Source of the DNA: Mitsuokella multacida DSM 20544
GTDB lineage: Bacteria > Bacillota > Negativicutes > Selenomonadales > Selenomonadaceae
Assembly (NCBI RefSeq): GCF_000155955.1
Contig: NZ_GG697141.2
Coordinates: forward strand, 186,001 to 250,000
DNA: 64,000 bases
Reading direction: 5' to 3'
Of this stretch, positions 15,908-32,546 are shown one piece after another; the stretch's first letter is position 1; the number at the start of each line of letters is the position of its first letter. The position numbers and the translations under genes are program-made. Below the pieces are notes generated by a model. That model was given only the letters and a program-made list of their open reading frames with translations, was not told the DNA's origin and did not search any database.

Positions 15908-16306
15908 TTAAATATGTGAATGAGCATCATCTTTAGATAAATTAATGATGGCATCGATGATGGCGTTTGACTTTTCATCTAGATGAGGATATTCGTTGAT
16001 GAGTTGTAACAAACGTTTATTCGTGATGTTTTCAGCAACCTTGGTTGTATTTATATAATCCGTTTCGAAGGAAGCCTGTTCCTCTCGATACGAATTGCTA
16101 TCATCTTTTACATAAGGTATCAGGGAAAGAATGGATATTCTTAATGCATCTGCTAAAGCGATTAAATCTTCAATTGTAATGCCTGTGGTATAACCTCCCT
16201 CCCAATTCGAAATTACCTGCGAACACTTATGCACCATCTGACCAAGTTTGGTTTGGGTGAGTTTTAGTTCTTTTCTCCTTTTCCTGATGTTGTCGCCGAT
16301 AGACAT
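15908..16306 (-). CDS. XRE-family helix-turn-helix regulator next to the Ssp operon
   Basis: A 132-residue DNA-binding protein. Residues ~1-55 are an XRE/Cro-C1 helix-turn-helix (MSIGDNIRKRRKELKLTQTK, then LADALRISILSLI). The C-terminal half has no domain I recognise. The start at 16306 has GGAGGTG 10 nt upstream; an in-frame ATG at 16333 would add nine residues, but TATAAT (minus strand, 16338-16333) overlaps it and is probably the -10 box. The AT-rich codon use matches the ssp genes and not ilvB. It is divergent from the ssp operon, whose promoter contains an inverted repeat, so I infer that it regulates the defence genes. The IS element has landed directly upstream of its -10 box and probably changed its expression. 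Confidence 0.8.
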   Translation of the reverse strand: MSIGDNIRKRRKELKLTQTKLGQMVHKCSQVISNWEGGYTTGITIEDLIALADALRISILSLIPYVKDDSNSYREEQASFETDYINTTKVAENITNKRLLQLINEYPHLDEKSNAIIDAIINLSKDDAHSHI

Positions 16307-16334
16307 GAGCCTGCACACCTCCATACTTTTCATT

Positions 16335-16361
16335 ATACAGAATCAGCAGTTTACAGCTTTT
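16335..16361. repeat. IS left end: 10-bp target duplication plus 17-bp terminal inverted repeat
   Basis: ATACAGAATC (16335-16344) is the first copy of the target-site duplication. The left terminal repeat AGCAGTTTACAGCTTTT occupies 16345-16361 and is a perfect inverted copy of the right end. Confidence 0.95.
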
Positions 16362-17802
16362 GAGACATAATAAAATCACGTAGCCCCTGCTGGTGTATAA
16401 TAGATTCACCACAAACCAAACACGAGAGGTGCTACGTGATGTCTCAATTATACACCAGTCAGTCGACAGTTGACAAACTCTTGACGATTTTTTCTTCCTT
16501 GTTTCTCGCTGCAACGAGACCGCCACGCCATCTGCTGGCGTGGCTCCTCATCGCTCAGCTGGCTCTGGAGTCGGCTTCGTCGGTGCGCTGCCTGTTCCGG
16601 CAGTTCCTGTCGAAGCAGACGGACGCATCGCTCAACAGCTATTACCGTGCCCTTGGCAACGGCCTCGTCACGGATGCATCCATTCGCCAGGCCTTGGCGC
16701 TGCAGGCGCTTGCCATAGTGCCAGAGGCAATGCGGCAGGAGCCTATCCTGCTCAGCGTGGACGACACGTCCATTGCCAAGTGGGGCAAGCACTTCGACGG
16801 TGTAGGGATCCTGTACGACCACGCCAAACACGATGGCAAGTCCTATTTCAATGGCCATGTATTTGTCAGCTTGACGATGAGCGTGCCGGTCCTCCATGAG
16901 AACGCAGGCAAGCAGCAGATCCGTTATATCGCGGTGCCGATTGGCTACGTCATGAGCAACGGCGAAGCCTCGAAGCTGACGCTTACCTGCCAGCTTCTCG
17001 ATGAAGTCATGCCAATCCTTGAAAAGCGCCAGGTCATCCTGCTCTTCGACAGCTGGTATGCCAAGCGTGAGCTGCTCGCGCATGCACTCCGCTACCCGAA
17101 TCTCAACGTGATCTGCAATGCACGTCATGATACGGCGATGTTCGAACTGCCGGGTTCGACGGCAGGCCGCCGAAGTACGGCAAGCGACTGATGCTGGATG
17201 AGATTGCCGATGATCTCACAAATTATCTTTGTCGGATGGACGACTATTTTGTCGCCCACCGTCTGGTGAAGACACGCATCTTCGGTGACCGCACCGTCCA
17301 TGCCTATGTGACGCTGAGCAAGAGCGGCTCATACCGTCTCTTTTTCAGCACCGTAGATTCGATGGCCCTGCACATGAGCATTGCCTGGCAGGAGAACAAG
17401 ACGCTCCGCAACACCAGCTCCAAGCATATGGCGATTTACCCACTCAAGCTCTACAAGCTCCGCTGGGGCATTGAGACGAACTACTACGAGCAGAAGATGT
17501 TCTGGGAGCTCGGCAGCTACAAAGTTCGCACGAAGACTGCGATTGAGCACCTGCTAAACCTGACGAATGCCGGGCACGCTCTCATGAAGATCCTGCCGTA
17601 TGAGGACGAGAAGCTAAGCACCTACCAGGACAAGAGCCCGCAAGAGCTGCGGCACGCGCTGAGTCAACAGATCCACAAGGAAGTATTTTTCGCCACTTTG
17701 GTGTCCAAAGCCCAAAGTAGCATAAATTCAAGCGCTCTGCTCAAAGCCTTGCAGGTCTTGGCCTGGGGCGATGGGCAAGCGGCTTAAAAGCTGTAAACTG
17801 CT
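16345..17802 (+). mobile_element. IS4-family insertion sequence, 1,458 bp
   Basis: The element is bounded by perfect 17-bp terminal inverted repeats and flanked by exact 10-bp direct repeats (ATACAGAATC), which is within the range known for IS4-family elements. Its only gene is a DDE transposase split by a frameshift. GC content is higher than in the surrounding island and closer to the host genome. It separates the XRE regulator from the ssp operon promoter. The intact ends and target duplication indicate a fairly recent insertion. Confidence 0.93.
16439..17787 (+). pseudogene. IS4-family DDE transposase, frameshifted
   Basis: The first frame (16439 to 17191) carries the first catalytic Asp region (LSVDDTSIAKWGKHFDG) and the second (ILLFDSWYAKREL). 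It then drifts into an unrelated tail after FELPG. The second frame, readable from about 17152 and with an ATG at 17191, continues with GFDGRPPKYGKRL and holds the catalytic Glu inside a textbook IS4 Y-x2-R-x3-E-x6-K signature (YKLRWGIETNYYEQK). The frame change falls at about 17147-17156. No slippery heptamer of A or T is present there, so I read it as a disabling frameshift, not programmed frameshifting; a sequencing error is also possible. Ribosome-binding site GAGAGGTG precedes 16439. Confidence 0.85.
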
Positions 17803-17812
17803 ATACAGAATC
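17786..17812. repeat. IS right end: 17-bp terminal inverted repeat plus target duplication
   Basis: The right terminal repeat AAAAGCTGTAAACTGCT (17786-17802) overlaps the transposase stop codon by two bases. The second ATACAGAATC copy follows at 17803-17812. Confidence 0.95.
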
Positions 17813-17865
17813 TAACGTTAAATGTTATAAACCTGACGATATATGAGAATATAATTGCCGTTTTG

Positions 17866-17894
17866 TTGCAAAATAACGTAACTCGTTATATAAT
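17866..17894 (+). promoter_or_regulatory. Promoter of the ssp operon with embedded operator
   Basis: TTGCAA (17866-17871) and TATAAT (17889-17894) are exactly 17 bp apart. Between them lies the inverted repeat ATAACG-N5-CGTTAT (17873-17889), ending on the first base of the -10 box. A second palindrome, TAACGTTA, lies upstream at 17813-17820. An operator in the spacer is a classic repression position; the neighbouring XRE protein is the obvious candidate repressor. The leader to the first gene is about 100 nt. Confidence 0.72.
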
Positions 17895-17999
17895 AAAAGT
17901 GTATATCTTGAGTTAAGCTCAAAATATGTGGCTTTTTGCCCTTTTTTACAGGTAATTAACGAATTTTGTTGTGTATAGAATAAAAGGTAACATATAAAA

Positions 18000-19715
18000 A
18001 TGTGGTGCAAACACTGTGAGATAGAGACAAACGAAAAAGAATGCCCGATTTGCGGGCAAAAAACAGAAATGAATGTTCCTACAGAAATTTATTGGTGCGA
18101 GCATTGCCAGGTACCGATTATCCGTCGAGTCAATCAGTCCGGTCAGTCAGAATGCCCGATTTGCGGACAAAAGACGAAGTATATGGCATCTGACCTGCGC
18201 CCAGTTTTTCCAGAAGAGCGACTGCTGTTGGAATTGCTCTTGAAATTTGAGCCCTTGAGCTTGGCTGAAAAATCTATCTGGGCAAATAAGAACCGCTATT
18301 ACATTGACGGTCATTCCAAGGTAATTACAGCCAAGAACTATGAAGCAGCTGATATTGAGCAGGTAAGGAAAATTCTGCAGGAACATGCTCAGGAAAAATA
18401 TTCTGGAGCCTTTAAGCGTCATATCCAAGACTTTTTGACAGTCAATCGTCATCATCTGCAGTCTATCATCGACGAGGCTCATCAGTTTATCAGAGAGGAA
18501 GCTTCTAAATATCCTGCAGAGAATATAGTATTGTCATTTTCAGGTGGCAAAGATTCGACAGTTACGGCAGACATTGTCACAAAGGCACTGAGCAATCCGA
18601 GTCTTGTTCATATTTTTGGCAATACAACATTGGAATTCCCGACAACATTGACATACGCAGAGCGGTTCCGTAAGAATCATCCACAGGCCATTTTTCAGAT
18701 TGCCCAGAATCGGGAACAAAATTTCATGGATATGTGCAAAGTAATTGGCCCGCCTGCCAGGATGATGCGCTGGTGCTGTTCTATGTTCAAAACAGGACCG
18801 ATTACACGAGTCATTAGTAATCTGTATCGAAATCAGCAGATTTTGACTTTTTATGGTATCCGTCGTTATGAGTCTGTCAGCCGCAGTAAATACAATCGCG
18901 TTGAGAAGAATACAGAGTCGGTAAAGATACAGCAGCAGACGGTTGCTGCCCCTATATTCAATTGGAAGGATATTGATGTCTGGCTTTATATCTTGGGTGA
19001 GAAAATTGACTTTAATGATGCTTATCGCTTGGGATATGACCGTGTTGGCTGTTGGTGCTGCCCTAACAATAATAAAAGAGCGCAGTTTCTTTCCAATATA
19101 TATATGCCAGAGCGTTCGACGAAGTGGCGTAACTTTTTGATTGACTTTGCCCATGAGATCGGCAAGGAAGATGCCGAGGTTTATGTTGGTACGGGCAAGT
19201 GGAAGGCACGACAGGGCGGAAATGGACTTCCTGCAGCTAAAACTGTCAAATTGCAGTATACGAACTGTACTTCAGAAGAACATTCAAAGATATATAAACT
19301 GTTCCGGCCATATGATGATGAACTGGTGAATATGTTTGTGCCGTTCGGAAAATTAGCACCGGAACTTGGCAGAAGATTACTGCATGAGACTGTAGTGTTG
19401 GATATCCATACCAATGTTCCTATTTTGTCCATTCAGCCGTTTAAGCAGGATGATTATGAACATGCAGTCAAGGTCAAGACAATGAATGTCAAGGACCATG
19501 ATGCACTGCAGAGAATGGCAGGATATCAGATACGAAAGTTCAACGCATGCCGCCGCTGCCTGAAATGTGAATCCTTATGTCGGACAGGGGCTATTTCTAT
19601 CATTGGAGATTCTTATTGTATTGATCCACAGAAATGCATACACTGTCAGAAGTGCATGAATGCAAAATATTTAGCGGGCGGCTGTATGATGGATAAATAT
19701 TTAAGAACGAAGTAA
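18000..19715 (+). CDS. sspD: SspD-like DNA phosphorothioation protein (PAPS-reductase/ATP-pyrophosphatase fold)
   Basis: A 571-residue member of the DndC/SspD branch of PAPS-reductase-like enzymes, which activate DNA with ATP and insert sulfur into the backbone. Residues ~3-55 hold two similar zinc-ribbon repeats (CKHC...CPIC and CEHC...CPIC). The PP-loop SFSGGKDST is at about residue 180. Core cysteines likely to bind an Fe-S cluster are in MMRWCCSMFK and GCWCCPNNN. Residues ~517-560 form an added ferredoxin-like region (C-x2-C-x2-C-x3-C, then C-x5-C-x2-C-x2-C). It is the first gene after the promoter at 17866. The ribosome-binding site is weak (AAGGT, 11 nt upstream). SspD, not DndC, is chosen because DUF4007, SspC-like and SspE-like genes follow. 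Confidence 0.82.
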   Translation: MWCKHCEIETNEKECPICGQKTEMNVPTEIYWCEHCQVPIIRRVNQSGQSECPICGQKTKYMASDLRPVFPEERLLLELLLKFEPLSLAEKSIWANKNRYYIDGHSKVITAKNYEAADIEQVRKILQEHAQEKYSGAFKRHIQDFLTVNRHHLQSIIDEAHQFIREEASKYPAENIVLSFSGGKDSTVTADIVTKALSNPSLVHIFGNTTLEFPTTLTYAERFRKNHPQAIFQIAQNREQNFMDMCKVIGPPARMMRWCCSMFKTGPITRVISNLYRNQQILTFYGIRRYESVSRSKYNRVEKNTESVKIQQQTVAAPIFNWKDIDVWLYILGEKIDFNDAYRLGYDRVGCWCCPNNNKRAQFLSNIYMPERSTKWRNFLIDFAHEIGKEDAEVYVGTGKWKARQGGNGLPAAKTVKLQYTNCTSEEHSKIYKLFRPYDDELVNMFVPFGKLAPELGRRLLHETVVLDIHTNVPILSIQPFKQDDYEHAVKVKTMNVKDHDALQRMAGYQIRKFNACRRCLKCESLCRTGAISIIGDSYCIDPQKCIHCQKCMNAKYLAGGCMMDKYLRTK

Positions 19716-19758: not shown

Positions 19759-20646
19759 ATGAAATTCAGGGGCCATGAGACATTCTTTATCCGTAAAGGC
19801 TGGCTTACCAAAGGGATGAAATATGTAAAGCGTCATCCAGACGTATTTGTCAGCAAAGAAGAAAAGCCCATGGATGTCCTGGGAATTGGTTCTAATATGG
19901 TTAGATCTCTTCGCTATTGGATGCAGGCTGTTGGCATCACAAAAGAGCCGACACATGGTAAGAGAACTCAGCAGTTTACACCGTTAGGAGAACTTATCTA
20001 TCGTTATGATCGCTACATCGAGGAACAGGGAACGCTTTCATTACTGCAATATGAGTTGGCTTCGAATCAGGAAGAAGCGACAGCGTGGTATTTTTTCTTT
20101 AATGAATTTCAGATGTTGGAATTCACGAGAGATGATTTCATCAGAAGCCTTAAAAATTATGTTTTAATGAAGGATGAAGAGACAAGTGTAGCGGATCGTT
20201 CATATCAAGATGATTTTAGCTGCATCATCAACACATACATTCCTAGAATCAAAGGCGGCCGACTGCAGTTTTCTCCTGAGAACAATATTGCCTGTCCCTT
20301 GGGAGAATTGGGCTTGATTGATTACGTCAGTCAAGATAGAACGATTTATCGCAAGACGATGGTCCAGCCGCAGATGTTATCTCCATATATTGCTTTAGCC
20401 ATGATTCTTTTGCAGCATGGTGATAATACAGAGGTTTCCTTGGAATCACTGCTTCATGCGTCTAAAAGTATTGGCAGAGCATTTAATCTTGATATGACAA
20501 CTTTGATGCAGCTGCTGAAACAATTAGAGCAGTTGGGGGAAGTCGAAGTCGTACGTACGGCAGGTCTGGATGTAGTGCACATTATGACAGAATATACGGC
20601 ACAAGAGTGTATAGAACAGTATTATCAAGACATCTTAAAGGAATGA
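19759..20646 (+). CDS. sspB: SspB-like DUF4007 protein (DNA nicking component)
   Basis: A 295-residue DUF4007 protein. The family hallmark is at the N-terminus: FRGHETFFIRKGWLTKGMKY, followed by VLGIGSNMVRSLRYWMQAVG. In characterised SspABCD systems SspB is the nickase that opens one strand so that sulfur can be inserted; that role is taken from family knowledge. No classical nuclease motif is readable by eye. The C-terminal third looks like a winged-helix region (MTTLMQLLKQLEQLGEVEVV). The gene starts 43 bp after sspD with a GAGGAG site and sits 10 bp before sspC. Confidence 0.82.
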   Translation: MKFRGHETFFIRKGWLTKGMKYVKRHPDVFVSKEEKPMDVLGIGSNMVRSLRYWMQAVGITKEPTHGKRTQQFTPLGELIYRYDRYIEEQGTLSLLQYELASNQEEATAWYFFFNEFQMLEFTRDDFIRSLKNYVLMKDEETSVADRSYQDDFSCIINTYIPRIKGGRLQFSPENNIACPLGELGLIDYVSQDRTIYRKTMVQPQMLSPYIALAMILLQHGDNTEVSLESLLHASKSIGRAFNLDMTTLMQLLKQLEQLGEVEVVRTAGLDVVHIMTEYTAQECIEQYYQDILKE

Positions 20647-20656
20647 AGAGAAAATT

Positions 20657-23600
20657 ATGAGTGAAATGATACACATAGCATCGGGATTCCAGTATTCTGT
20701 GAATCTGCGTTATGACCTTAATCGTGAGGATAAAATAGAGAACTTCATTCCGACTTCGGCTGCATTGGATTTTATGGAAGACATCATGAAGTCTATCAGA
20801 GAAAATTCTACAGAACGGGCGAGAGTCTTAGTCGGGGCTTATGGTAAAGGAAAATCTCATATGGTCCTGACAATGCTGGGATTGCTGCTGAAAAAAGATT
20901 TGCAGAAGTTCAAGCATTTACAGCCTAAATTATCTGAGCATAAGGCCTTAGCAAAGGAGATTGACCGCTATTATAGCAGTTCGGGGAAGATTCTGCCGGT
21001 CATCATCTCAGGCAGCAGTACAAGTATTCCTCAGTCGTTCCTGACGGCCTTGGAGCAGTCCTTAAGAGATAATAATCTTTTGGATATTATGCCAGACACA
21101 AATTATAAGGCAGCGGTACAATGCATTCAAAAGTGGCAGCAGGAATATCCGGATACGTATCAGGCATATATCAATATGATTGCTGATGAGCCAGAAGATT
21201 TTATCAAACGCCTGGCACAGTATGATGTGCAGGCCTATGAAATTTTTGAACGTTTGTATCCACAGCTGACGGCAGGAAGTGTATTTAATCCATTCCTTGG
21301 TTTTGATATTGCAGAACTTTACAGCAGCGTAGTGCGTTCCCTGAAAGATAAGGGGTATCAAGGAATTTATGTCGTCTATGATGAATTTAGCAAGTATCTG
21401 GAAGCGAACATACAGGAAGCTTCTGTCAGTGATACAAAGATGCTGCAGGATTTCGCAGAGAAATGCAATCGCAGTGGCAAAGAACAGCTTCATCTTTTGT
21501 TGATATCGCATAAGGAGATTGCGAATTATATCGACCGTCTGCCAAAACAGAAGACCGATGGCTGGCGCGGTGTCTCGGAACGATTCAAACACGTCCATAT
21601 GCGTGCAGAATACGCTCAGACGTATGAACTGATTGATAACGTCATTCAAAAAGAAGAATTATTGTGGAAATCGTTCACTAAAAAATATCATGACCAATTT
21701 ACGTTGCTGATGAGGCAATACTTAAACCATTCGATATTTGCCGATTTAAATCATAAAGTAGCAGCGCGTGTTATCTTGGAATCTTATCCGTTGCATCCGG
21801 TATCTGTCTTTATTCTGCCGCGCTTGTCAGAGCGTATTGCCCAGAACGAAAGAACGCTGTTTACCTTCTTATCGGCAGATGGTACTGCGACTTTGCGGGA
21901 TTTTTTGCGTCGGTATGGCCAGGATGATTTTCATCTTATTACGGCAGACCTTTTATTTGATTATTTCCATCCTTTGATGGAAAAGGAAGCCTATGACGGA
22001 GAAATTCACCAGCGCTATCTGCTGGCAAAATCCATTCTGCAAAAAGTTCATGAGAATGAATTGCAGCAGAAAATTGTTAAAATCCTGGCGCTGTTTTACA
22101 TGGTAGAACAGTTTGATGTGTTGCCACCGACAAGAGAAGAATTGACAAATATCCTGCGTTTTGCTTATTCGGCAGAAGCGATTGATTCTGCACTTGATGA
22201 TTTAATCGAACGTCAATATGTTGTATATCTGAAACGCAGCAACGGGTATCTTTGCCTGAAACAGAGCTCGGGTGTTGATGTACAGCAGAAAATAAAAGAT
22301 TTCATCGCTTCACATCAGGATATAGATATGAAGACGCTGCTCAACGGCATGAATTTTAACCGCTATCTCTATCCAGCAAGGTATAACGATGAACGAGAAA
22401 TTACCCGCTTTTTTGCAGTTGAATTTATTACGGCTGAAGAAGTCAGGGAAGACGTGAATTGGCAGGTAAAAAGCGAATCGATAGCAGCAGATGGTGTCAT
22501 TTATGCAGTTTTGCCAAATGAAGAGGCCGAGATTCAACAAACAGCGGATGTATTGCAAAAATCTGGTGATGAGACAAAAAGATTTGTCTTTGTGGTACCA
22601 AAGCATTATCAGCCTATTCGTGATACCTTGTTCGGTTTCTATGCAGCAGGACAGCTAAGAGATGCAGCGGGAGAAGATTATGTTCTTCGCGATGAATATA
22701 ATCTGATTTATGAAGATTATTATGTCATAGTGAGGTCTTTCCTGCAGAGCTATACTCGTCCGGAAATGAAACAGGCCTATTATTATCATATGGGACAGCG
22801 TCTGCATATTCGCAGACGTGCAGAGTTATCGACATTGTTATCTAAAATCTGTGACTTTACTTACCCGATGACGCCGGTTATTAATAATGAAGTCATCAAT
22901 AAAAATGAAATCACGGTAATGGCAGCTAGGAGTCGTCATAAAGTTGTAACAGCCATACTGCGTCCGATAACAGAGCCAAATTTAGGTTTGATAGGCTCAG
23001 GGCAGGATATGTCTATTATGCGCAGCACTTTGATGCGTACAGGGATTTTGACAGCAGATAATGATAAATGGCAGTGGCATAAGCATACCGGAGATGCGGA
23101 AATGGATTATACGATGGCCACTATTAGTGCATTTCTGGAGCATGCAGGTGAAAACCAGCCAGAGTCTTTTGCTGATTTGTATTATCAGTTGATGTCACCG
23201 ACTGGACGTATTGGTTTGCGCAGGGGCGTTATACCGATTTTATTAGCGGTGGCAATGCGTCCATACTTGCAGTCGCTGTTGATTTATGAAAAGGATGAGC
23301 AGTTGCCGATTCAGGCTGACACGCTGGAGCAGATTAATGCTCATCCAGAAAATTATCAATTGAGAAGACTTAATTGGTCGCAGGAAAAAGAAACGTATAT
23401 CGAAGATTTGGGGCAGCTCTTTAACGCATCACTGCAGGATCATGTTCAGGGCAGAGTCGATTACGATGCAACAGCACATGCTATTATGGCCTGGTATCTT
23501 GCTCTTCCGAAATATACTAAAGAATTACAGCAAAAGCCAACAGGTGAAAAACTAGAGAAAAAAATCAGGGCATTTCGCAAGGCTGTAAGCTCAGAGCGAA

Positions 23601-24262
23601 GCAGCAGCAAGTTGCTTTTTGTCAAAATGCCTGAAGCATGTCAGTTGACAATAAATGATGCAGGTGTTCTTATTGATGCAATAAAAAATATCAAGACCGA
23701 ATTGGATAATGCGCTGGATGCGTTGGTAAATGAAATTTGTCAATTTATGATAAAAGTCTTCAGAAACGCACAGCCTGAACGAGCATCTCTTCATTCCATT
23801 TTGATGGACTGGTATGAGCAGCTGCCCTCTGCTATTGGAGAAGAAGTTTTTTCGGATGGTACAACTATCTTCCTTAAAATTTGTCAGGGTGACCTCTTAG
23901 GTGATGTACAGCTCATTCGGCAGTTAGCCCGAGAGGTAACAGGGCTGCGCCTGGAAGATTGGTCAGATAGGACATATTCAGAATTCTGTACGAAAGTAAA
24001 ACGCTATAAACAGACGGCAGAAGAATTTCAGCCTGTAAATCAGGAAAATGCAGAAACAGCAGAAGAAGTGGAAGATGGATATTACTTCTCTTATCCGGAA
24101 GCCGGACAAATGGTACGCAGACATTTCGTCAAGGTGCCATATTCTCCTAGAGCTAAGCTGCTGTTGAACAGCATCACGGCAGATATTGAAGCAATGGGAC
24201 AGGCTATCAATCCTGAGGAAAAACGTCAAGTAGTGGCAGAAATCCTGCAAAAGCTCTTTTAA
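20657..24262 (+). CDS. sspC: SspC-like large P-loop ATPase
   Basis: A 1,201-residue ATPase. The Walker A motif GAYGKGKSHM is at about residue 60 and a Walker B-like stretch, GIYVVYDEFSKYL, near 240. The remainder is long and helical without a domain I can name; similar large ATPases occur in SspABCD and BREX systems. Its position between DUF4007 and cysteine desulfurase genes identifies it as SspC, which is thought to supply ATPase and remodelling activity during single-strand phosphorothioation. BREX is unlikely because no PglX methyltransferase, PglZ or BrxL is present. The start at 20657 has GAAGAG upstream, and sspA follows after 11 bp. Confidence 0.78.
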   Translation: MSEMIHIASGFQYSVNLRYDLNREDKIENFIPTSAALDFMEDIMKSIRENSTERARVLVGAYGKGKSHMVLTMLGLLLKKDLQKFKHLQPKLSEHKALAKEIDRYYSSSGKILPVIISGSSTSIPQSFLTALEQSLRDNNLLDIMPDTNYKAAVQCIQKWQQEYPDTYQAYINMIADEPEDFIKRLAQYDVQAYEIFERLYPQLTAGSVFNPFLGFDIAELYSSVVRSLKDKGYQGIYVVYDEFSKYLEANIQEASVSDTKMLQDFAEKCNRSGKEQLHLLLISHKEIANYIDRLPKQKTDGWRGVSERFKHVHMRAEYAQTYELIDNVIQKEELLWKSFTKKYHDQFTLLMRQYLNHSIFADLNHKVAARVILESYPLHPVSVFILPRLSERIAQNERTLFTFLSADGTATLRDFLRRYGQDDFHLITADLLFDYFHPLMEKEAYDGEIHQRYLLAKSILQKVHENELQQKIVKILALFYMVEQFDVLPPTREELTNILRFAYSAEAIDSALDDLIERQYVVYLKRSNGYLCLKQSSGVDVQQKIKDFIASHQDIDMKTLLNGMNFNRYLYPARYNDEREITRFFAVEFITAEEVREDVNWQVKSESIAADGVIYAVLPNEEAEIQQTADVLQKSGDETKRFVFVVPKHYQPIRDTLFGFYAAGQLRDAAGEDYVLRDEYNLIYEDYYVIVRSFLQSYTRPEMKQAYYYHMGQRLHIRRRAELSTLLSKICDFTYPMTPVINNEVINKNEITVMAARSRHKVVTAILRPITEPNLGLIGSGQDMSIMRSTLMRTGILTADNDKWQWHKHTGDAEMDYTMATISAFLEHAGENQPESFADLYYQLMSPTGRIGLRRGVIPILLAVAMRPYLQSLLIYEKDEQLPIQADTLEQINAHPENYQLRRLNWSQEKETYIEDLGQLFNASLQDHVQGRVDYDATAHAIMAWYLALPKYTKELQQKPTGEKLEKKIRAFRKAVSSERSSSKLLFVKMPEACQLTINDAGVLIDAIKNIKTELDNALDALVNEICQFMIKVFRNAQPERASLHSILMDWYEQLPSAIGEEVFSDGTTIFLKICQGDLLGDVQLIRQLAREVTGLRLEDWSDRTYSEFCTKVKRYKQTAEEFQPVNQENAETAEEVEDGYYFSYPEAGQMVRRHFVKVPYSPRAKLLLNSITADIEAMGQAINPEEKRQVVAEILQKLF

Positions 24263-24273
24263 GGGAGGAAGCT

Positions 24274-25419
24274 ATGGAATATTTTGATAATGCAGCGACA
24301 ACATATCCTAAACCAGAATGTGTTTATCATGAAATGGACAACTTTTACCGCAGTCATGGTGGCAGTGCCGGCAGGGGAACCCATGAAGGAGCGAAGTCCG
24401 CAGGAATGCTGATTGCTGAGACCAGAGACCGGCTTAAATCCCTTTTTCATGCGCCGAATCATGAGGTCATCTTTACACCGACAGCTACATTGGCGTTGAA
24501 TATGATTATTCAAGGAATGATTAAAGCTGGGGCTCGTAATATCTATATATCGCCATTTGAGCATAACGCAGTCACCCGAGTGCTCCATGCTTTGGCTAAA
24601 GAATACACGCTGTCTGTTCATCAACTCAAAGTCAGAGATAATCTTGCTTATGATATGGAACGCATCCGTTATCAGTTTGATAAACAGGCACCAGATTTTG
24701 TTATTGTATCGCATGCAAGCAATGTTATTGGTTTGATTGCACCAGCGCCGGATATTTTCTCTTTAGCAAAAAAATATCAAGCTTGTACATTATTGGATAT
24801 GTCACAGACCGCAGGACTGGTAGATATCGATATACAACGTTCTGATTGTGATTTTGCCGTTTTTGCTGGACATAAGACATTATACGGCCCTACAGGTATT
24901 TCAGGATTCCTTATGAAGCCGGAGATTTCGCTACCGCCAGTTCTATTCGGGGGAACTGGTGTGGCTTCGGCAGAACAAGATATGCCGCAGGATTTGCCAG
25001 CACGTTATGAGATGGGAACAATGAATATCTCAGGCATCGCTGGGCTGCATGCAGCGTTAGGCTGGCTGCTGGAGACAGGGATTGACAATATACGCAAACG
25101 GGAACATGCAAATCGTCAGCAGCTGTTGGAAATTCTTGAAGGATATGACTATTTACAGTTGGTTGGGGTTAATCCGGAAAGAGAGTACATTGGTGTGGTA
25201 TCGGTGCTTATTGATGGAATCAGCAGTGATAGTGCGGGACCACTTTTTGATGAACATGACATTGCCATCCGGACAGGCCTGCAATGTGCACCCTTGGCAC
25301 ATAAGTTTTTAGGGACATTCCCCGCAGGGACACTTCGCTTTAGTGTCAGTTATTTCACGACAGAAAGGGATTTTGAAGCATTGAAGTCCGTTTTGGATGA
25401 AATACAAGAAGATATATAA
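24274..25419 (+). CDS. sspA: SspA-like cysteine desulfurase
   Basis: A 381-residue PLP-dependent class V aminotransferase that releases sulfur from cysteine. It begins MEYFDNAATTYPKP, has the PLP Lys in FAGHKTLYGP (K201) and the catalytic Cys in TGLQCAPLAHK (C338). The PAGTLRFSVSYF segment is typical of the family. The sulfur would be handed to SspD for DNA modification. Other cysteine desulfurases serve Fe-S cluster or tRNA thiolation pathways, but the 11-bp and 10-bp gaps to neighbours inside this operon tie it to phosphorothioation. GGGAGG precedes the start. Confidence 0.88.
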   Translation: MEYFDNAATTYPKPECVYHEMDNFYRSHGGSAGRGTHEGAKSAGMLIAETRDRLKSLFHAPNHEVIFTPTATLALNMIIQGMIKAGARNIYISPFEHNAVTRVLHALAKEYTLSVHQLKVRDNLAYDMERIRYQFDKQAPDFVIVSHASNVIGLIAPAPDIFSLAKKYQACTLLDMSQTAGLVDIDIQRSDCDFAVFAGHKTLYGPTGISGFLMKPEISLPPVLFGGTGVASAEQDMPQDLPARYEMGTMNISGIAGLHAALGWLLETGIDNIRKREHANRQQLLEILEGYDYLQLVGVNPEREYIGVVSVLIDGISSDSAGPLFDEHDIAIRTGLQCAPLAHKFLGTFPAGTLRFSVSYFTTERDFEALKSVLDEIQEDI

Positions 25420-25429
25420 GAGGTCAGAT

Positions 25430-27625
25430 ATGAGTTTACAGGATATTGCACTGAAAACAGAATATCGTTCCTTTCAGGATGATATCGCGCAGGATTTTTA
25501 TATCCCCGCTTTGAAGCAGGCCGTCAGATATAAAAGGGCAGTGGGCTTTTTCTCTTCATCCATTTTGTCAATGATAACAGCAGGCTTGTATGAATTTTAT
25601 CAGCACGAAGGCAAAATCGAATTGTTGGCATCGCCTAAACTTTCAAGAAAAGACATAGAAGCTATTGAACAGGGATATGCTGCAAGAGAAACCGTTATCG
25701 AGCGATCTTTGAGGCGGGAATTATTGGATTATGAAGATTTCTGTACGCTGAATCGCTTGAACTTGCTGGCAAATCTTATTGCTGATGAACGTCTTGATAT
25801 CAAGATTGTGGTGCCAAAAGGCAGAAAAGGTATTGGCATGTATCATGAGAAAGTTGGTCTGCTTGAAGATTCTTTTGGCAATATTGTGGCCTTTTCAGGA
25901 TCGATGAATGAGAGCGGTAATGCGTTGGAGCAGAATTATGAATCCTTCGATGTCTTTTGTTCATGGCAAGAAGCAGATGCTGCAAGAGTCATGCAGAAAT
26001 CAGCTGACTTTACTCGCTTATGGTATAATCTTGATTCCCATGCATCGGTGCAAACATTTCCTGAAGTTACATCATATCTGGTAGATAAATATCGTATAGG
26101 CCCAGTAAAACCGATAAAAGAAATTTATCCTGTATATCATCCTCAGTCAGATGAACAAATCGCAGAAACGGTTGACGATAACGAGGCTAAAGTCGAGTCT
26201 CAAAAGTCAGGATTTCAAATCCCTAAAGAATTGAGGCTTTATTCCTATCAGCAGCAGGCAATTAATTCATGGCGGCAGCATGGCTATCGTGGCATCTTTG
26301 ATATGGCGACAGGAACAGGTAAGACGCTGACTGGATTGGGAGCATTGGCGGCTTTATGTGAGCAGAAGCCGCGTCTGGCTGTTATTATCGTTTGTCCTTA
26401 TCAGCATTTGGTTGACCAGTGGGGTGAGGATATCGAAAAATTCAAGGTGCATCCAATTATCGGACATAGCGCATCACCACAGCATAATTATAAGGAAAGA
26501 CTCAGATGGGCAGTATTCAGCTTTAACCTAGAAGCTCGAGATTTTTTCTGCTTTATTTGCACGAATGCGACATTTGCTGCTGATTGGGCACAAGCAGAAT
26601 TCGCCAAACTGAAGGAACCATCAGTTTTAGTGGTAGACGAAGCACATAATTTTGGTGCTGAAAAATTAATGCAGACGCTGCAGAAGAACTATACCTATCG
26701 ATTAGCACTTTCCGCAACGATGGACCGACATAATGATCCGGAGGGAACAGAGTGCCTGTATCGATTCTTTGGCGATGTATGCATTCATTATGACCTTGGA
26801 CGGGCAATTCAAGAAAAAAAGCTTGTGCCGTATGACTATTATCCTGTTGTCATTTACCTCACGGAAACAGAATTGAAAAAATATCAACAGCTGACCATCG
26901 AGATAGGTAAAGGCATCTATAAAAAGAAAGGAAAAATCATTGTTACACAAAAGGCTAAAACGCTGCTGCTAAAGAGGTCGCGTATAGTTGCTGGGGCAAT
27001 GAACAAAGTCGAAAAGCTGCGCGAAATGATGCTAGAATTTAAAGATAAGCATGACATGTTGATTTATTGCGGCGCAGCACAAGTCGGCATAGAAGATGAA
27101 AATTTGGATATCCGGCAAATTGATTACATCTCGCGTATGTTGAATTTTGAGTTAGAAATGAGAACGGCACAGTTCACATCCAAAGAGTCTATGGACGAAA
27201 GAGCTCGGCGGATAGAAGAATTCAAGTCACATGACATACAAGCCCTAGTGGCCATTAAATGTCTTGATGAAGGCGTCAATATTCCGAGTATTCGCACGGC
27301 GTTTATTCTAGCTAGTACGACAAACCCGAAAGAATATATCCAGCGACGGGGTCGTGTATTAAGGCGTTATCCAGGGAAAGAATCTGCAGTTATCTATGAT
27401 TTTATTACCTTGCCACGTTCCTTGGACGAAGTTCGAAATTCAGATGCAGCATTAGGATGGCATGAACTGGCCTTGGTAAAAAATGAGCTCAACAGAATGG
27501 TAGAATTCCGTAATCTTGCTAGGAATTTTTATGTATCGGATCATTTGATTGATGAAATAAGGGATACGTACAATATTCCGATAACAGAAACTGGATTTGT
27601 TGATGAAAGAGAAGAGTGGGGGTAG
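25430..27625 (+). CDS. PLD-like/DEAH-box SF2 helicase (probable SspFGH-module subunit)
   Basis: A 731-residue fusion. Residues ~1-200 resemble a phospholipase-D-type nuclease domain with one HxK motif (YHEKVGLLED, about 138) and FSGSMNES downstream. Residues ~270-700 are a superfamily 2 helicase: Walker A DMATGTGKT (about 293), DEAH box VVDEAHNF (about 402), motif III ALSATMD and motif VI QRRGRVLRRYPG. Such a protein could translocate on DNA and cut it. SspFGH modules have been reported next to sspBCD and damage unmodified DNA; I place this protein there by context but do not assign its letter. ATG 25430 is chosen over 25397, which would overlap sspA. Confidence 0.75.
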   Translation: MSLQDIALKTEYRSFQDDIAQDFYIPALKQAVRYKRAVGFFSSSILSMITAGLYEFYQHEGKIELLASPKLSRKDIEAIEQGYAARETVIERSLRRELLDYEDFCTLNRLNLLANLIADERLDIKIVVPKGRKGIGMYHEKVGLLEDSFGNIVAFSGSMNESGNALEQNYESFDVFCSWQEADAARVMQKSADFTRLWYNLDSHASVQTFPEVTSYLVDKYRIGPVKPIKEIYPVYHPQSDEQIAETVDDNEAKVESQKSGFQIPKELRLYSYQQQAINSWRQHGYRGIFDMATGTGKTLTGLGALAALCEQKPRLAVIIVCPYQHLVDQWGEDIEKFKVHPIIGHSASPQHNYKERLRWAVFSFNLEARDFFCFICTNATFAADWAQAEFAKLKEPSVLVVDEAHNFGAEKLMQTLQKNYTYRLALSATMDRHNDPEGTECLYRFFGDVCIHYDLGRAIQEKKLVPYDYYPVVIYLTETELKKYQQLTIEIGKGIYKKKGKIIVTQKAKTLLLKRSRIVAGAMNKVEKLREMMLEFKDKHDMLIYCGAAQVGIEDENLDIRQIDYISRMLNFELEMRTAQFTSKESMDERARRIEEFKSHDIQALVAIKCLDEGVNIPSIRTAFILASTTNPKEYIQRRGRVLRRYPGKESAVIYDFITLPRSLDEVRNSDAALGWHELALVKNELNRMVEFRNLARNFYVSDHLIDEIRDTYNIPITETGFVDEREEWG

Positions 27626-27629
27626 TCAT

Positions 27630-27803
27630 ATGGATGGACAGCAGGATTTTAAAGTTGATCAGGATATTGTCAAACGCTTGATATTCAGGATTATCATGGA
27701 TGAAAATAAAAACCTGAAATTTCCATACAACCAAAGAACACCTGACAATAAAATGGCGGAGAAGATATACCAAAACATTGTCGATGAAGTTTCAAAGGGG
27801 TGA
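27630..27803 (+). CDS. Small uncharacterised protein in the defence operon, 57 aa
   Basis: A 57-residue charged protein beginning MDGQQDFKVDQDIVKRLIFR. It has no motif, signal peptide or membrane segment that I recognise. GTGGGGG lies just upstream, it starts 4 bp after the helicase stop, and its own stop overlaps the region where the DndD-like gene starts, so it looks translated as part of the operon and not a chance frame. It may be a small structural or inhibitory subunit of the helicase/SMC module. Function unknown. Confidence 0.6.
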   Translation: MDGQQDFKVDQDIVKRLIFRIIMDENKNLKFPYNQRTPDNKMAEKIYQNIVDEVSKG

Positions 27804-27808
27804 ATGAC

Positions 27809-29821
27809 GTGATTATTAAAAGCATGACACTGGAGAATTTCCGCCAGTTTAAAGGTGAATCTACACTGGATTTCGCCACAGATTCTCATAAAAATGTTAC
27901 TGTCATTATGGGAGAAAATGGTGCAGGAAAGACGACGCTAGAACAGGCTTTTATGTGGTGCCTTTATGGAACAAATACATTTCGGTTAAAGGAACTTATT
28001 AATCGTGAAGTACGAGATACTATGATTAGCGGTGATGAAGAAAGAGTATCCGTGACTTTGATGATAAGCCATAATCAGAAGAATTATAAGATTGTACGTA
28101 AACAACGACTGAAAAAACAAGGTGTTCGTTTTGATAAGAACCCGGAGGAGAATTTCTGGGTATACGAACAGAATGAAAATGGTGACTATACTCCTTTGAC
28201 TAGTACGAAGGGCGCAGCTATGATTCGTGAATTCCTGCCCGAAGAACTGTCCGGTTTTTTCTTTTTTGATGGCGAACGCTTAGATCATATGAGCGAAGAA
28301 TTATTAAACCATGGTAAGAGTAGTAATTTTAAGGGAGCTGTTCGTGGTTTAGTAGGATTAACTGCTATGATGAATGCGATAGAGCATCTCGGCAGAGAGA
28401 ATTTGAAGAGAAGTGTCATTGGCATGATTAATTCAGAAATCGATGCGCAGGGTGATGTAGATGAGACAGAGCTAAGTTCGCAGATCGAGAAGCTGCAGAC
28501 GGAGCGGGATAATCAGAATAATCGTCTAGAAGAGATTAAACCGGAACACGATCGATATCAACAGGATATTGGCAGATTTCGGAAAGAATTACAGGATATG
28601 CAGGATGGGATCAAGCGCCAAAATGAATATGAAAACTGCAAGCTGAAAAAGGAGCGTGAAGAAGCAGAACAAGAAAAAGCTCGTAAAAGTATATATGAAT
28701 ATTTTGGTAAAAATATTGGCATGTACATTTTGATACCGCTTCTCAGACGAGCATTGAATGAACTGGATGGAGAAAATAAACTGGATAAGGGTATTCCACA
28801 TATTCATGCCGATACTATAAAATTCCTGCTTGAGCGCGGTAAATGCATTTGCGGGACAAATTTAGTAGAACATCCGGAAGCAGTACAACATCTCAATGAA
28901 TTGATATCTTCGCTTCCTCCGTACAGCATTGGTAATATGATTGGTCAGTATACGGACCGTGCAAGGAGTCAAACACGTGGGGCAAGTGGGTTCGCTAGAG
29001 CTTTTCAAGAGCGCATGGCAAATTACGCACAGCATCTAACAAATATTGAAGAAGCAGAGGATCGAATGCATGATCTTGAGAAATTACTGCCTGACCAGGA
29101 GAAAGTAAAAAATCTGAATGGACGGATTGCGGAAGCAAAAGTAAATGCTAAGCGATTGAATGATGAGATATATCAGTTGGCAGGAATTGTTCACGAAAAA
29201 GAGTCGCAAATTACGCGATTAGAGGCAGAACGGCTTCATTATAGACAGGCCTCTGTGAGAAATCGTAAACAATTACGGTATTTGGCTTATGCACAGGCAA
29301 TTAAAGATGAGCTGGAAACGAGTTATAAGAAAAAAGAAGAGCAGGTTCGAGAGGATCTTGAAAACTGCATCAATCAGATTTTTGAAGATATCTATGATGG
29401 CGGTATACAGATTTCAGTCAGTGAGAACTATAATATTGTGACTACCGTTATTGATACCGATGCAGCAAGTGGCGATGAAATAGAAAAAAATACGGCGCAA
29501 AGTTATGCTATCATTTTTGCTTTTATTGCGGGAATCATTAAAATGGCCAAAGAGGGCAGAGAAGTGACAGGCGAGAAGATTTATCGGGAAGATGAAGGCT
29601 TCCCACTAGTCATGGACGCACCACTTTCGGCATTTGATAAGAACAGAATCAAGAAAATCTGTACTGTCTTACCGCATATTGCTGATCAGGTTATCATTTT
29701 CATCAAGGATACTGATGGTGAGATTGCCGAAAAATACATGCAGGATATTATTGGTAAGAAATGGCTTTTAGAGCAGGAAACGAAAACCCGCTCTACTGTT
29801 GTAGAAAGGGCGTGTGTATAA
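27809..29821 (+). CDS. DndD-like SMC/Rad50-type ATPase (probable SspFGH-module subunit)
   Basis: A 670-residue SMC-like ATPase of the DndD type. It has Walker A GENGAGKTTLEQAF (about residue 35) and the DndD hallmark FFFFDGERLD. A long coiled-coil arm is broken near residue 345 by a short CICG element resembling a zinc hook, and Walker B/D-loop FPLVMDAPLSAFDK is near 597. GTG 27809 is chosen because AAAGGGG lies 8 nt upstream and the protein then begins with the usual MIIKSMTLENFRQF; GTG 27800 is an alternative that overlaps the previous stop. In Dnd systems DndD belongs to the modification complex, but here it sits with a helicase, so an effector role is as likely. Confidence 0.8.
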   Translation: MIIKSMTLENFRQFKGESTLDFATDSHKNVTVIMGENGAGKTTLEQAFMWCLYGTNTFRLKELINREVRDTMISGDEERVSVTLMISHNQKNYKIVRKQRLKKQGVRFDKNPEENFWVYEQNENGDYTPLTSTKGAAMIREFLPEELSGFFFFDGERLDHMSEELLNHGKSSNFKGAVRGLVGLTAMMNAIEHLGRENLKRSVIGMINSEIDAQGDVDETELSSQIEKLQTERDNQNNRLEEIKPEHDRYQQDIGRFRKELQDMQDGIKRQNEYENCKLKKEREEAEQEKARKSIYEYFGKNIGMYILIPLLRRALNELDGENKLDKGIPHIHADTIKFLLERGKCICGTNLVEHPEAVQHLNELISSLPPYSIGNMIGQYTDRARSQTRGASGFARAFQERMANYAQHLTNIEEAEDRMHDLEKLLPDQEKVKNLNGRIAEAKVNAKRLNDEIYQLAGIVHEKESQITRLEAERLHYRQASVRNRKQLRYLAYAQAIKDELETSYKKKEEQVREDLENCINQIFEDIYDGGIQISVSENYNIVTTVIDTDAASGDEIEKNTAQSYAIIFAFIAGIIKMAKEGREVTGEKIYREDEGFPLVMDAPLSAFDKNRIKKICTVLPHIADQVIIFIKDTDGEIAEKYMQDIIGKKWLLEQETKTRSTVVERACV

Positions 29822-30360
29822 TGTTCGATAAAAATGTTGTTTTTACAGGGAAACATGCCGAATATCTTCGAGCATTAGCACAAGGCAGCGGTAAACCCGA
29901 TCCCAATCATGATTGGCCTTTTAAAATGAATTATCAAGTCCTAATGGCTGCTCCAGTTATTGGCTTCTTGTATCATCGTTTCAGCCCAAAGGACAATGAC
30001 AAAAACATACAGGAAAATAAAATATTCGTTGAACAGCTTATCAATAATATTGACCAATTGGAACTTATCTATCGAACCATTGTACTTCTAGCACAATCAG
30101 ATAGTGTCTCTTTGGATGAACGAATGAATCGCGCATTCCGTTATGACCGTGATGAAGAGAAGCGTAGAAAAGGTGATGAAATTTTTAAAGGATATGTTCG
30201 TGGTGGTATAGAGGTCCTTTATGAGCAGCTGATTCAAGGCGCTGAAACAAAAAGTGACGATATTCAAAAGTTGCAGGATTTTGTAGTTCTTTGCGGCCAG
30301 TTTGAGCATGAAGATGATCCAGAGTGCATCTATAAATTCTGCAGGGAAGCAGGTATTTAA
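29821..30360 (+). CDS. Uncharacterised defence-operon protein, 179 aa
   Basis: A 179-residue soluble, mostly helical protein starting MFDKNVVFTGKHAEYLRALA. Its ATG shares one base with the stop of the DndD-like gene (TAATG), so the two are translationally coupled and their products probably interact. I compared it with DndE, which often follows dndD, but it is longer and lacks anything I would accept as a DndE signature. It is most likely the third SspFGH-type subunit. sspE follows after 20 bp. Confidence 0.65.
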   Translation: MFDKNVVFTGKHAEYLRALAQGSGKPDPNHDWPFKMNYQVLMAAPVIGFLYHRFSPKDNDKNIQENKIFVEQLINNIDQLELIYRTIVLLAQSDSVSLDERMNRAFRYDRDEEKRRKGDEIFKGYVRGGIEVLYEQLIQGAETKSDDIQKLQDFVVLCGQFEHEDDPECIYKFCREAGI

Positions 30361-30380: not shown

Positions 30381-32546
30381 ATGGAAAACAAGAACATATC
30401 CGATTTGACGGAACTCATTAAGCAGATTGAAGCTAATGAAATACTGCTTCCGGATTTTCAGAGAGAATTTGTTTGGAAAGATGTAGAACAGCAGAAACAA
30501 TTGGTTGCCTCAGTCCTGGCACGTATGCCAATTGGCAGTATCCTGCTTCTCCAGTCTTCTAATCCAAAAGAATTTTCATCAAAGGCCTTGGGCAGAAAGC
30601 AGATTATCAATACAAGCGAACTTGGCGGCAATGTCGAGTACCTGTTAGATGGACAGCAACGTATGACTGTACTGACTAATGTTTTCTCAAATGCCATATT
30701 TCAGGGATTGACATCTGTCAATGATTTAGTAGCACCAATGGCCTTGAAACGACGTTTTTTTATCAAACTGCCAAAATGGAAATCTGCTGAGAATAGCGAA
30801 GAAGATATATTTGGGTTTCATGACTTGAATTTTCCTACTAATAATATTGATAACCCAACATATTTATCAGGGGAGATTATGCCAATTCTAGAGGTCATAG
30901 AATTTAACAAGAATGATGGAAAAGTGTTCAATCCATTCACTTCGGAGGAGAAAGCGACACCAAATGATTTAGCGAAATTTTGTATTAGTAAAAAAGACAG
31001 CTATCTAATTCCGCTTTATTTGATTACATCAAATGATCAAAAAACTAACAGAAAAATATCGCGCATAGCTACAAAGATAAAGGATGATTATGTTTCAGAT
31101 ATGAAAGACTATTATGATAGACTTTCGAAAGATGAACAGGAGAAATTTATAAAAAAATATACGGATGAACCTGATGAAGATAGGAAAATTGAAGATATTT
31201 TTGCTGGGAACTTCAATGCATGGTGGACATCTTTTAACGAATATTTAAAAGATTGTATTAAGATGACTGCCTTGAGCCAACTTGTTGTATCGGAGGCACA
31301 AAGAGGCAGAGCCATTGATATATATGAGAATTTAAATCGTGGCGGCGTTAGTCTAAATACTTTTGATTTGATGACAGCTAAAGTTGCGGTGGTTAGTTCA
31401 GAAGGCTTGTATCAACGACTCATCAAGTATATTTTGGAACCAACAGAAATCGATAAGAATGTTGTTCCAGAACGTATGGAGGCGGAAGTTGCCAAACTGA
31501 CGAATTACAATGCTTCTTTGAGACTCGGCTGCTATAACGAAAATAATAATACGATTGCCCCGAAGTATTTGAACGCTTTCCTTGATGTTATATCGCTTCG
31601 TTGCTATAATCCGGATTTTATCCCACGTGAATATAAATTAGATTATATAAAACAAGATAAAATCCTTGATCTCAATCCGGAGAATATCAATCAAAACGTT
31701 GAGATAGTCTGTAAGGGAATTGATAGAGCTAGCTTTTTTTTGCAGACACGCTGCGGTATACGAAAACTGTCAGAGGTAAATAATCTTTTCATTCTTGTAC
31801 TCCTGGCGTGTATATTTCTTAAGGATAAGTGGTTTCATGATAAAAAAGTACATAATTTGCTAGAAGCGTGGTATTGGTGCGTTATTTTTAGTGGTGAATT
31901 TGATAAGGACCAAAACAGAAACTTTATCAAAAATATCCAACTGTTGACAAAGTCCCTGGTGGATTCACAAGATATTGAGTGGCTTAAAAATATGAAAAGC
32001 ATGATTTTAAACGCACCGAACTATTCTGATAAAGAGCTTCTACTCTATGAAAAAGTAGATGATGAACGTTATCCTAAGAAAAATTTAGCAGATTATATAT
32101 GTCAATTCCTTTTATCAGAGCCATGTCCAAGTATGTTTGACTCTGAAGAAGTAATGAGTGTATTCTCAGAAAAAACAAAGTCTGATAATACATCATTGGA
32201 AGCACATCATATCATTCCGTTGGGATCGGTAAAGAAAATAGGGCAAGTGTCCGGTGCTTTAAGAAGAGATGTACGTAGTATTTATAATTCTCCACTTAAT
32301 TTCATCTATATCACGAAAAAAGATAATAATTCTATATCAGATAAAAGCGTCAATGATTATATTCAGGAAATTACATCGGAAGCAAGAAGTAGATTGATGT
32401 TGACAAAGTTCCAAAATGATGAATATAATGATGATGATGTAAAAGATTTTCTCTCGGAACGCTTTGACAGATTACAGGGCTTGATACGCAACAGGGTGGG
32501 GGAACTACTCGCCAATAGTGGCTATTCGTCATATTGTTCAAATTAA
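30381..32546 (+). CDS. sspE: SspE-like DUF262/HNH effector of phosphorothioation defence
   Basis: A 721-residue protein with an N-terminal DUF262 domain (LLPDFQREFVWK, then the nucleotide-site motif YLLDGQQRMTVL at about residue 90) and a C-terminal DUF1524-type HNH nuclease region (EAHHIIPLG at about 609, with NSPLNFIYITKKDN downstream). SspE senses phosphorothioated self DNA, is stimulated to hydrolyse NTP and nicks phage DNA; this is known for characterised homologues and assumed here. GmrSD type IV enzymes share the same two domains, but the position at the end of an sspDBCA operon favours SspE. The start has GAGGGGAAAG upstream. It is the last gene of the operon. Confidence 0.8.
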   Translation: MENKNISDLTELIKQIEANEILLPDFQREFVWKDVEQQKQLVASVLARMPIGSILLLQSSNPKEFSSKALGRKQIINTSELGGNVEYLLDGQQRMTVLTNVFSNAIFQGLTSVNDLVAPMALKRRFFIKLPKWKSAENSEEDIFGFHDLNFPTNNIDNPTYLSGEIMPILEVIEFNKNDGKVFNPFTSEEKATPNDLAKFCISKKDSYLIPLYLITSNDQKTNRKISRIATKIKDDYVSDMKDYYDRLSKDEQEKFIKKYTDEPDEDRKIEDIFAGNFNAWWTSFNEYLKDCIKMTALSQLVVSEAQRGRAIDIYENLNRGGVSLNTFDLMTAKVAVVSSEGLYQRLIKYILEPTEIDKNVVPERMEAEVAKLTNYNASLRLGCYNENNNTIAPKYLNAFLDVISLRCYNPDFIPREYKLDYIKQDKILDLNPENINQNVEIVCKGIDRASFFLQTRCGIRKLSEVNNLFILVLLACIFLKDKWFHDKKVHNLLEAWYWCVIFSGEFDKDQNRNFIKNIQLLTKSLVDSQDIEWLKNMKSMILNAPNYSDKELLLYEKVDDERYPKKNLADYICQFLLSEPCPSMFDSEEVMSVFSEKTKSDNTSLEAHHIIPLGSVKKIGQVSGALRRDVRSIYNSPLNFIYITKKDNNSISDKSVNDYIQEITSEARSRLMLTKFQNDEYNDDDVKDFLSERFDRLQGLIRNRVGELLANSGYSSYCSN

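Follow-up and report, generated by a model that had tools for sequence, protein, structure and literature searches.

A predicted phage-immunity-type repressor/operator switch at an Ssp/Pbe-type phosphorothioation operon, with an insertion sequence between operator and repressor gene

The stretch at positions 17813-17971 is probably the control region of an Ssp/Pbe-type phosphorothioation defence operon, with three operators for a small XRE-family protein (XRE), which would repress the operon and whose own feedback appears now to be lost through an insertion sequence (IS). Judged by comparison across genomes, the ssp switch is a repressor/operator cassette of the phage-immunity type. Repression by XRE is well supported by this comparison at the level of the family, and is uncertain in this strain because the IS parts the repressor from its operator. 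Positions refer to the window, the whole 64,000-nucleotide stretch of Mitsuokella multacida DNA that was analysed. How defence operons are held quiet or turned on is a largely open question.

The operon under study consists of the following genes.

18000-19715, plus strand: sspD-like PAPS-reductase gene, first of the operon (PADLOC: BrxP best, then SspD and DndC)
19759-20646, plus strand: sspB (DUF4007; domain and PADLOC)
20657-24262, plus strand: sspC, large ATPase (PADLOC)
24274-25419, plus strand: sspA, cysteine desulfurase (domain and PADLOC)
25397-27625, plus strand: pbeA-like helicase with a PLD-like domain (domain and PADLOC)
27800-29821, plus strand: pbeC/dndD-like ATPase (domain and PADLOC)

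SspA, SspB, SspC and SspD are thus found together; the SspA, SspB and SspC models are the best PADLOC models of their proteins, and the PAPS-reductase protein matches the SspD model at 4e-13. From the Pbe effector set the PbeA and PbeC models match, and two small ORFs beside the PbeC/DndD-like gene, at 27597-27803 and 29761-30360, have no PADLOC match; the first of these we take to be a possible DndE-like partner. At the end of the cluster, several candidate defence models match a 721-aa ORF (30381-32546) weakly.

Upstream of sspD, the promoter and its operators are arranged as follows.

17866-17871, plus strand: ssp -35 TTGCAA (consensus scan; TTG in 9/9 ssp genomes, TTG being demanded by the search)
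17889-17894, plus strand: ssp -10 TATAAT (consensus scan and cross-genome comparison)
17813-17827: operator O1, TAACGTTAAATGTTA; overlay the xre promoter at its -35 and spacer until the IS inserted
17874-17888: operator O2, TAACGTAACTCGTTA, in the spacer of the ssp promoter
17957-17971: operator O3, weak, TAACGAATTTTGTTG, in the ssp leader before sspD (a site here in 9/9 ssp genomes, with a perfect core in 7)

The sequence-only reading had described a TTGCAA-17-TATAAT promoter enclosing ATAACG-N5-CGTTAT, and this was borne out. The half-sites lie at 17873-17878 and 17884-17889 inside the 17-nt gap between -35 and -10, the final base of CGTTAT serving as the first base of the -10, and a promoter scan also finds it, with 10 of 12 consensus matches. 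The further sequence reported upstream, TAACGTTA, is present at 17813-17820, but it is no separate element; it is the left part of O1, which reads TAACG-TTAAA-TGTTA in register with O2. O3 reads TAACG-AATTT-TGTTG and, as a third site, is weaker than the other two (mismatches in this genome: one in O1, two in O3). The genome, of 2.58 Mb, has only three exact matches to TAACGN5YGTTA, two of which fall in this control region and the third within a 76-codon ORF; TAACGN5SGTTATANAAT, the operator with its abutting -10, occurs once.

The window by itself leaves some room for a palindrome that arose by chance in AT-rich promoter sequence, since its 8 operator matches (<=1 mismatch), against 2.6 expected, are a modest excess. 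The picture changes with 189 genomes of the family. Of these, G144, G149, G145, G158, G004, G011 and G019 have a close sspD homologue (73-98%), and G153 has a split one that entered the promoter comparison through locus L083 despite its split match. TTGnnn-17-TAnnnT with the operator in the spacer and GTTA against the -10 is present in 9/9 ssp genomes, the window included, TTG and the 17-nt spacing having been search requirements, and in the same 9/9 a further operator starts 30-43 nt before the sspD start. TAACGN5SGTTATANAAT falls at 17 places in the 189 genomes, 12 of them in xre/ssp intergenic regions, compared with 3 for a reversed control pattern. Conservation of place in nine genomes, together with linkage to one regulator subfamily, makes a chance origin so improbable that it can be set aside, and the comparison marks the palindrome in the ssp promoter as an operator. 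Twelve more distant sspD loci (61-67%) have no match to this xre adjoining sspD, and the operator (<=1 mismatch) is absent from 11 of them, the other having a 1-mismatch site.

The start-to-start spacing of O2 and O3 is 83 in the window and G144 and 110-116 in the other ssp genomes. These spacings share no helical phase, which disfavours DNA looping between the two sites. The leaders vary as well. In 7/9 ssp genomes the leader is more stably folded than its shuffled versions (z -2.0 to -4.2), and in L006-L011 and L083 a stable hairpin followed by a T-rich stretch lies between O2 and O3, just before O3; in these seven the arrangement is perhaps an attenuator. The leaders of the window (z -0.8) and G144 (z 0.1) lack the hairpin and fold no better than shuffles, and an attenuator reading was therefore dropped for this locus.

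The candidate repressor is encoded beyond O1.

15908-16306, minus strand: xre, small HTH_3 (XRE) protein of 132 aa, from an ATG after GGAGG

The HTH_3 match was obtained with a longer ORF, 15908-16333. The solved proteins nearest to XRE are P22 C2 repressors (E 2e-6), PHROGs transcriptional repressor models match it (E 1.6e-11), and it is 50-57% identical to its ssp-linked homologues. An operator (<=1 mismatch) lies within 330 nt upstream of 17/19 family xre homologues, where shuffles expect about 0.01 each; this count leaves out L012, with its match at a contig end, and the partial or distant sspD matches L025-L033. In the two homologues that lack the operator (G019:C20 and G005:C19), K replaces H just before the helix.

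The linkage extends to loci without ssp. Where the helix [ST][SAP]QV[IV]SNWE is present, the operator is found at 30/36 genome loci, as against 1/44 of the others, and at 29/29 viral loci, as against 3/51 of the others; these counts cover the 160 loci kept, out of 226 and 85 relatives, and are raised by relatedness, by search patterns that hold part of the helix, and by prophages occurring in both collections (L113/L180 and L120/L184, for example, are each the same prophage). The six helix-positive genome loci without the operator are of the KKSSQ and GKSSQ type, which points to the residues before the helix as positions that may set specificity. Relatives of XRE that carry one of these two motifs there and have no operator were noted at L105-L107 and L110-L112. 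A strict motif, TAACGNAWTNCGTTA, occurs at 25 places in the 189 genomes, 20 of them adjoining an xre homologue. A wider regulon was considered and rejected, as the five remaining places fit the background given by a reversed control (6). Four of these five were inspected: two lie within long ORFs (G129 and G145:C11), and two have no adjoining xre homologue (G160:C25 and G185).

We conclude from these comparisons that ATAACG-N5-CGTTAT is most plausibly the operator of XRE, the two forming a pair of the phage-immunity type. XRE, which the sequence-only reading had presumed to be the regulator, is indeed the best candidate, because the same operator tracks its subfamily in phages and in genomes that have ssp or lack it; what no longer holds is that xre is directly divergent from ssp, as an IS lies between. 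That some other regulator uses the site could be argued from G144, which retains O1-O3 with no xre at the locus. The tracking of the XRE subfamily both with and without ssp speaks against it, as do the 11/12 distant sspD loci that lack both the site and such an xre homologue beside sspD, and we regard it as quite unlikely.

Control by XRE can be reconstructed from the observed sites, geometry and linkage. XRE, presumably as a dimer, would bind TAACG-N5-CGTTA, a sequence of two-fold symmetry. On O2 it would span the spacer against the ssp -10 and so exclude RNA polymerase, and the position of O2, in the spacer and abutting the -10, is supported as one suited to repression. At O3, in the leader, XRE may add a roadblock or strengthen repression, and at O1 it would formerly have sat on the xre promoter, giving feedback. 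A role of XRE as activator, or a dual role, draws on the CGTTAGT half-site that relatives' xre promoters have upstream of the -10, and phage repressors can both activate and repress, as lambda CI does at its own promoter. At ssp, however, the operator takes up the spacer as far as the -10 in 9/9 genomes, the place for polymerase exclusion, and we consider an activating or dual role unlikely.

Beyond what the sequence-only reading contained, xre and O1 are separated by an IS flanked by 10-bp direct repeats.

16345-17802, plus strand: insertion sequence, 1458 bp, inverted ends AGCAGTTTACAGCTTTT; DDE_5
16335-16344: left copy of the 10-bp direct repeat ATACAGAATC
17803-17812: right copy of the same repeat
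16332-16337, minus strand: xre promoter -10 TATAAT, left on the xre side of the IS (consensus match only)
16447-16476, minus strand: promoter-like TTGTCA-18-TATAAT inside the IS, reading towards xre (11/12 consensus matches)

The transposase frame of this copy is split (ORFs 16436-17191 and 17191-17787). A second copy, 92% identical and with one long open frame, lies at G000:C6:1100699-1102170 and also has the outward promoter-like sequence. With the IS in between, xre is parted from O1 as well as from its old -35. At the empty site, ATAACA lies 17 nt upstream of the xre -10, within O1 and its edge, whereas with the IS in place the best -35 match for xre is 1/6. Removal of the IS and one repeat leaves the start codons 225 nt apart, the very distance seen in G144. 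The divergent order of xre and ssp assumed earlier is the ancestral one, with a divergent xre homologue 226-245 bp from sspD in 7/8 other close ssp genomes (the exception is G144), but here 1458 bp of IS intervene.

By cutting xre from O1 and the -35, the IS would have abolished feedback. The gene may now be either silent, leaving ssp constitutive, or read from the IS-borne promoter, and control in this genome may accordingly be broken or rewired. Of the tight repression proposed in the sequence-only reading, the suitable placing of the operator stands; for this strain the proposal is conjectural and may be contradicted by the present locus. The further proposal, that the defence system is switched on only under certain conditions, is unsupported as worded for this strain, and the IS-split locus may likewise contradict it.

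The closest relative bears on the same question. The sspD gene of G144 is 98% identical to that of the window although the genus differs, and the ssp cluster therefore probably moved between genera. G144 has the empty site and keeps O1-O3, with no xre at the locus. In G144 (L084, about 4200-4260), the xre start codon is kept and homology ends right after it; possibly another mobile element ends at this joint. Over the 225 nt, the window and G144 differ by 13 substitutions. The three 15-bp cores are free of them and a single one touches the edge of O1, a pattern that is suggestive only, and not strong.

The XRE of the window deviates at five columns that are invariant in 17 others, which themselves deviate at 0 to 4 in the same test. 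S28C and R37G, two of the five, fall in the DNA-binding region and place this XRE outside the helix pattern used for the operator linkage. Strong decay of xre was considered and rejected, the excess divergence being small once cross-clade pairs are compared. The operators here may nevertheless be relics, with ssp constitutive after the IS (in G144, after loss of xre) and the layout recording past control. This concerns the present state and not the origin of the switch, and so overlaps with the reading preferred here. The separation of xre from O1 and its -35, the two changes in the DNA-binding region, and a closest ssp relative without xre all favour it. Set against this, xre is still open over 132 codons, the IS carries its promoter-like sequence towards xre, operator cores are identical in the window and G144, and the divergence of xre is just slightly above that of other cross-clade pairs. 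We give the relic state serious weight, somewhat short of even.

The predicted switch of the preferred reading, repression of ssp by XRE, can be set beside several known systems. P22 C2/CI-like and ImmR-like phage immunity repressors share with it a related HTH, a shared operator and a divergent layout with several operators. Such repressors face cro-like and early genes, whereas XRE here faces an IS and then ssp; with no divergent cro-like or phage early genes, the locus was not classed as a phage immunity region. Operators are about 110 bp apart at ssp loci (83 here), whereas the phages have two sites about 27 bp apart and one far site. XRE, at 132 aa, is an HTH only: it has no self-cleaving domain, no longer C-terminal part such as that of the 211-aa repressor of L170, and no adjacent M78 (ImmA-like) peptidase such as the one beside the repressor of G030, the two M78 matches of this genome, at C6:76374 and C6:390443, being far from xre at C6:201908.

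The C proteins of restriction-modification systems, such as C.Kpn2I, are likewise small HTH regulators of a self/non-self system with feedback on their own gene, and for C.Kpn2I a site that follows the promoter was shown to be able to serve as a roadblock, as far as the available part of that report goes (PMC6237814). C genes usually precede the restriction gene and share its operon, according to the same portion (PMC6237814), whereas xre is on the opposite strand and its operator is of phage type. DndB also regulates a phosphorothioation operon; in the accessible text it binds two palindromes, TACG-N10-CGTA, in the promoter of the Salmonella dnd operon (PMC4507180), boxes that differ from the TAACG-N5-CGTTA found here, and it is a ParB-superfamily protein, as the visible part of another source states (PMC10853773), whereas XRE is an HTH_3 protein. 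The WYL repressors BrxR/CapW likewise travel with different defence systems and bind, close to the -10, inverted repeats whose halves are 5 bp apart; in the excerpt at hand the BrxR repeats are of 11 bp and the protein has a WYL domain (PMC9122601), whereas XRE has no WYL match. Neither the DndB nor the BrxR binding sequence, as given in these partial texts, fits TAACG-N5-CGTTA (PMC4507180, PMC9122601). RptR is likened to XRE by description: the portion available likewise presents a dedicated repressor of defence genes, located in a defence island (PMC12255303). The open-access papers searched, mostly in the form of titles and the starts of abstracts, showed no XRE or phage-type repressor of ssp and no match to the operator letters.

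Elsewhere in the family the cassette faces other genes. In G157, G142 and G160 xre faces a gene, which in G157 has a WYL domain and is followed by an IetA-like ATPase gene. In G164, G166, G167 and G169 it faces surface-sugar-like genes (DUF4422 in both scanned, G164 and G169), in G006 a GDSL hydrolase gene, and in G007, G012 and G030 a cro-like gene and apparent phage genes. In G147 and G148 it faces BREX-like genes (BrxP and BrxC models, scanned in G148). Together, the loci with BREX-like, WYL/IetA-like and surface-sugar genes are L072, L073, L070, L071, L074 and L075-L078. One phage-type repressor/operator cassette would thus stand before phosphorothioation, BREX-like, WYL/IetA-like and surface-sugar genes in a single family.

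A tree of the HTH domain, built on few columns, groups 20/21 family proteins with two viral repressors (98/97), plus three of the five rows added as others. This is compatible with exchange between host and phage and says nothing for its direction. The phage collection yielded no match when searched with the window's XRE; searched with two viral relatives it gave only proteins below 60% identity, and in three phage records from that search the operator turned up just once, with 1 mismatch and at a distance from the repressor.

It is conceivable, if on the whole improbable, that the cassette senses phages by operator mimicry. As host XRE and temperate-phage repressors have one operator in common, the several operators of an incoming, replicating phage would titrate XRE off O2 and so turn on whichever defence operon the cassette governs, be it Ssp, BREX-like or IetA-like, and XRE on the phage operators would damp early genes. 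If this were true, a defence that had been inducible would become constitutive once xre or its promoter was lost, as may be the case here and in G144. The two related loci, with the regulator cut off or lost, offer natural experiments on its absence, and the cassette provides a simple, testable link between phage repressor and host defence. Among the relatives, three to four operator copies were seen beside phage-type repressors at L080, L081, L082, L170, L171 and L177, with divergent cro-like genes in most; the viral repressor of L170 is 211 aa long, and at L171 and L080 a peptidase-like gene adjoins the repressor.
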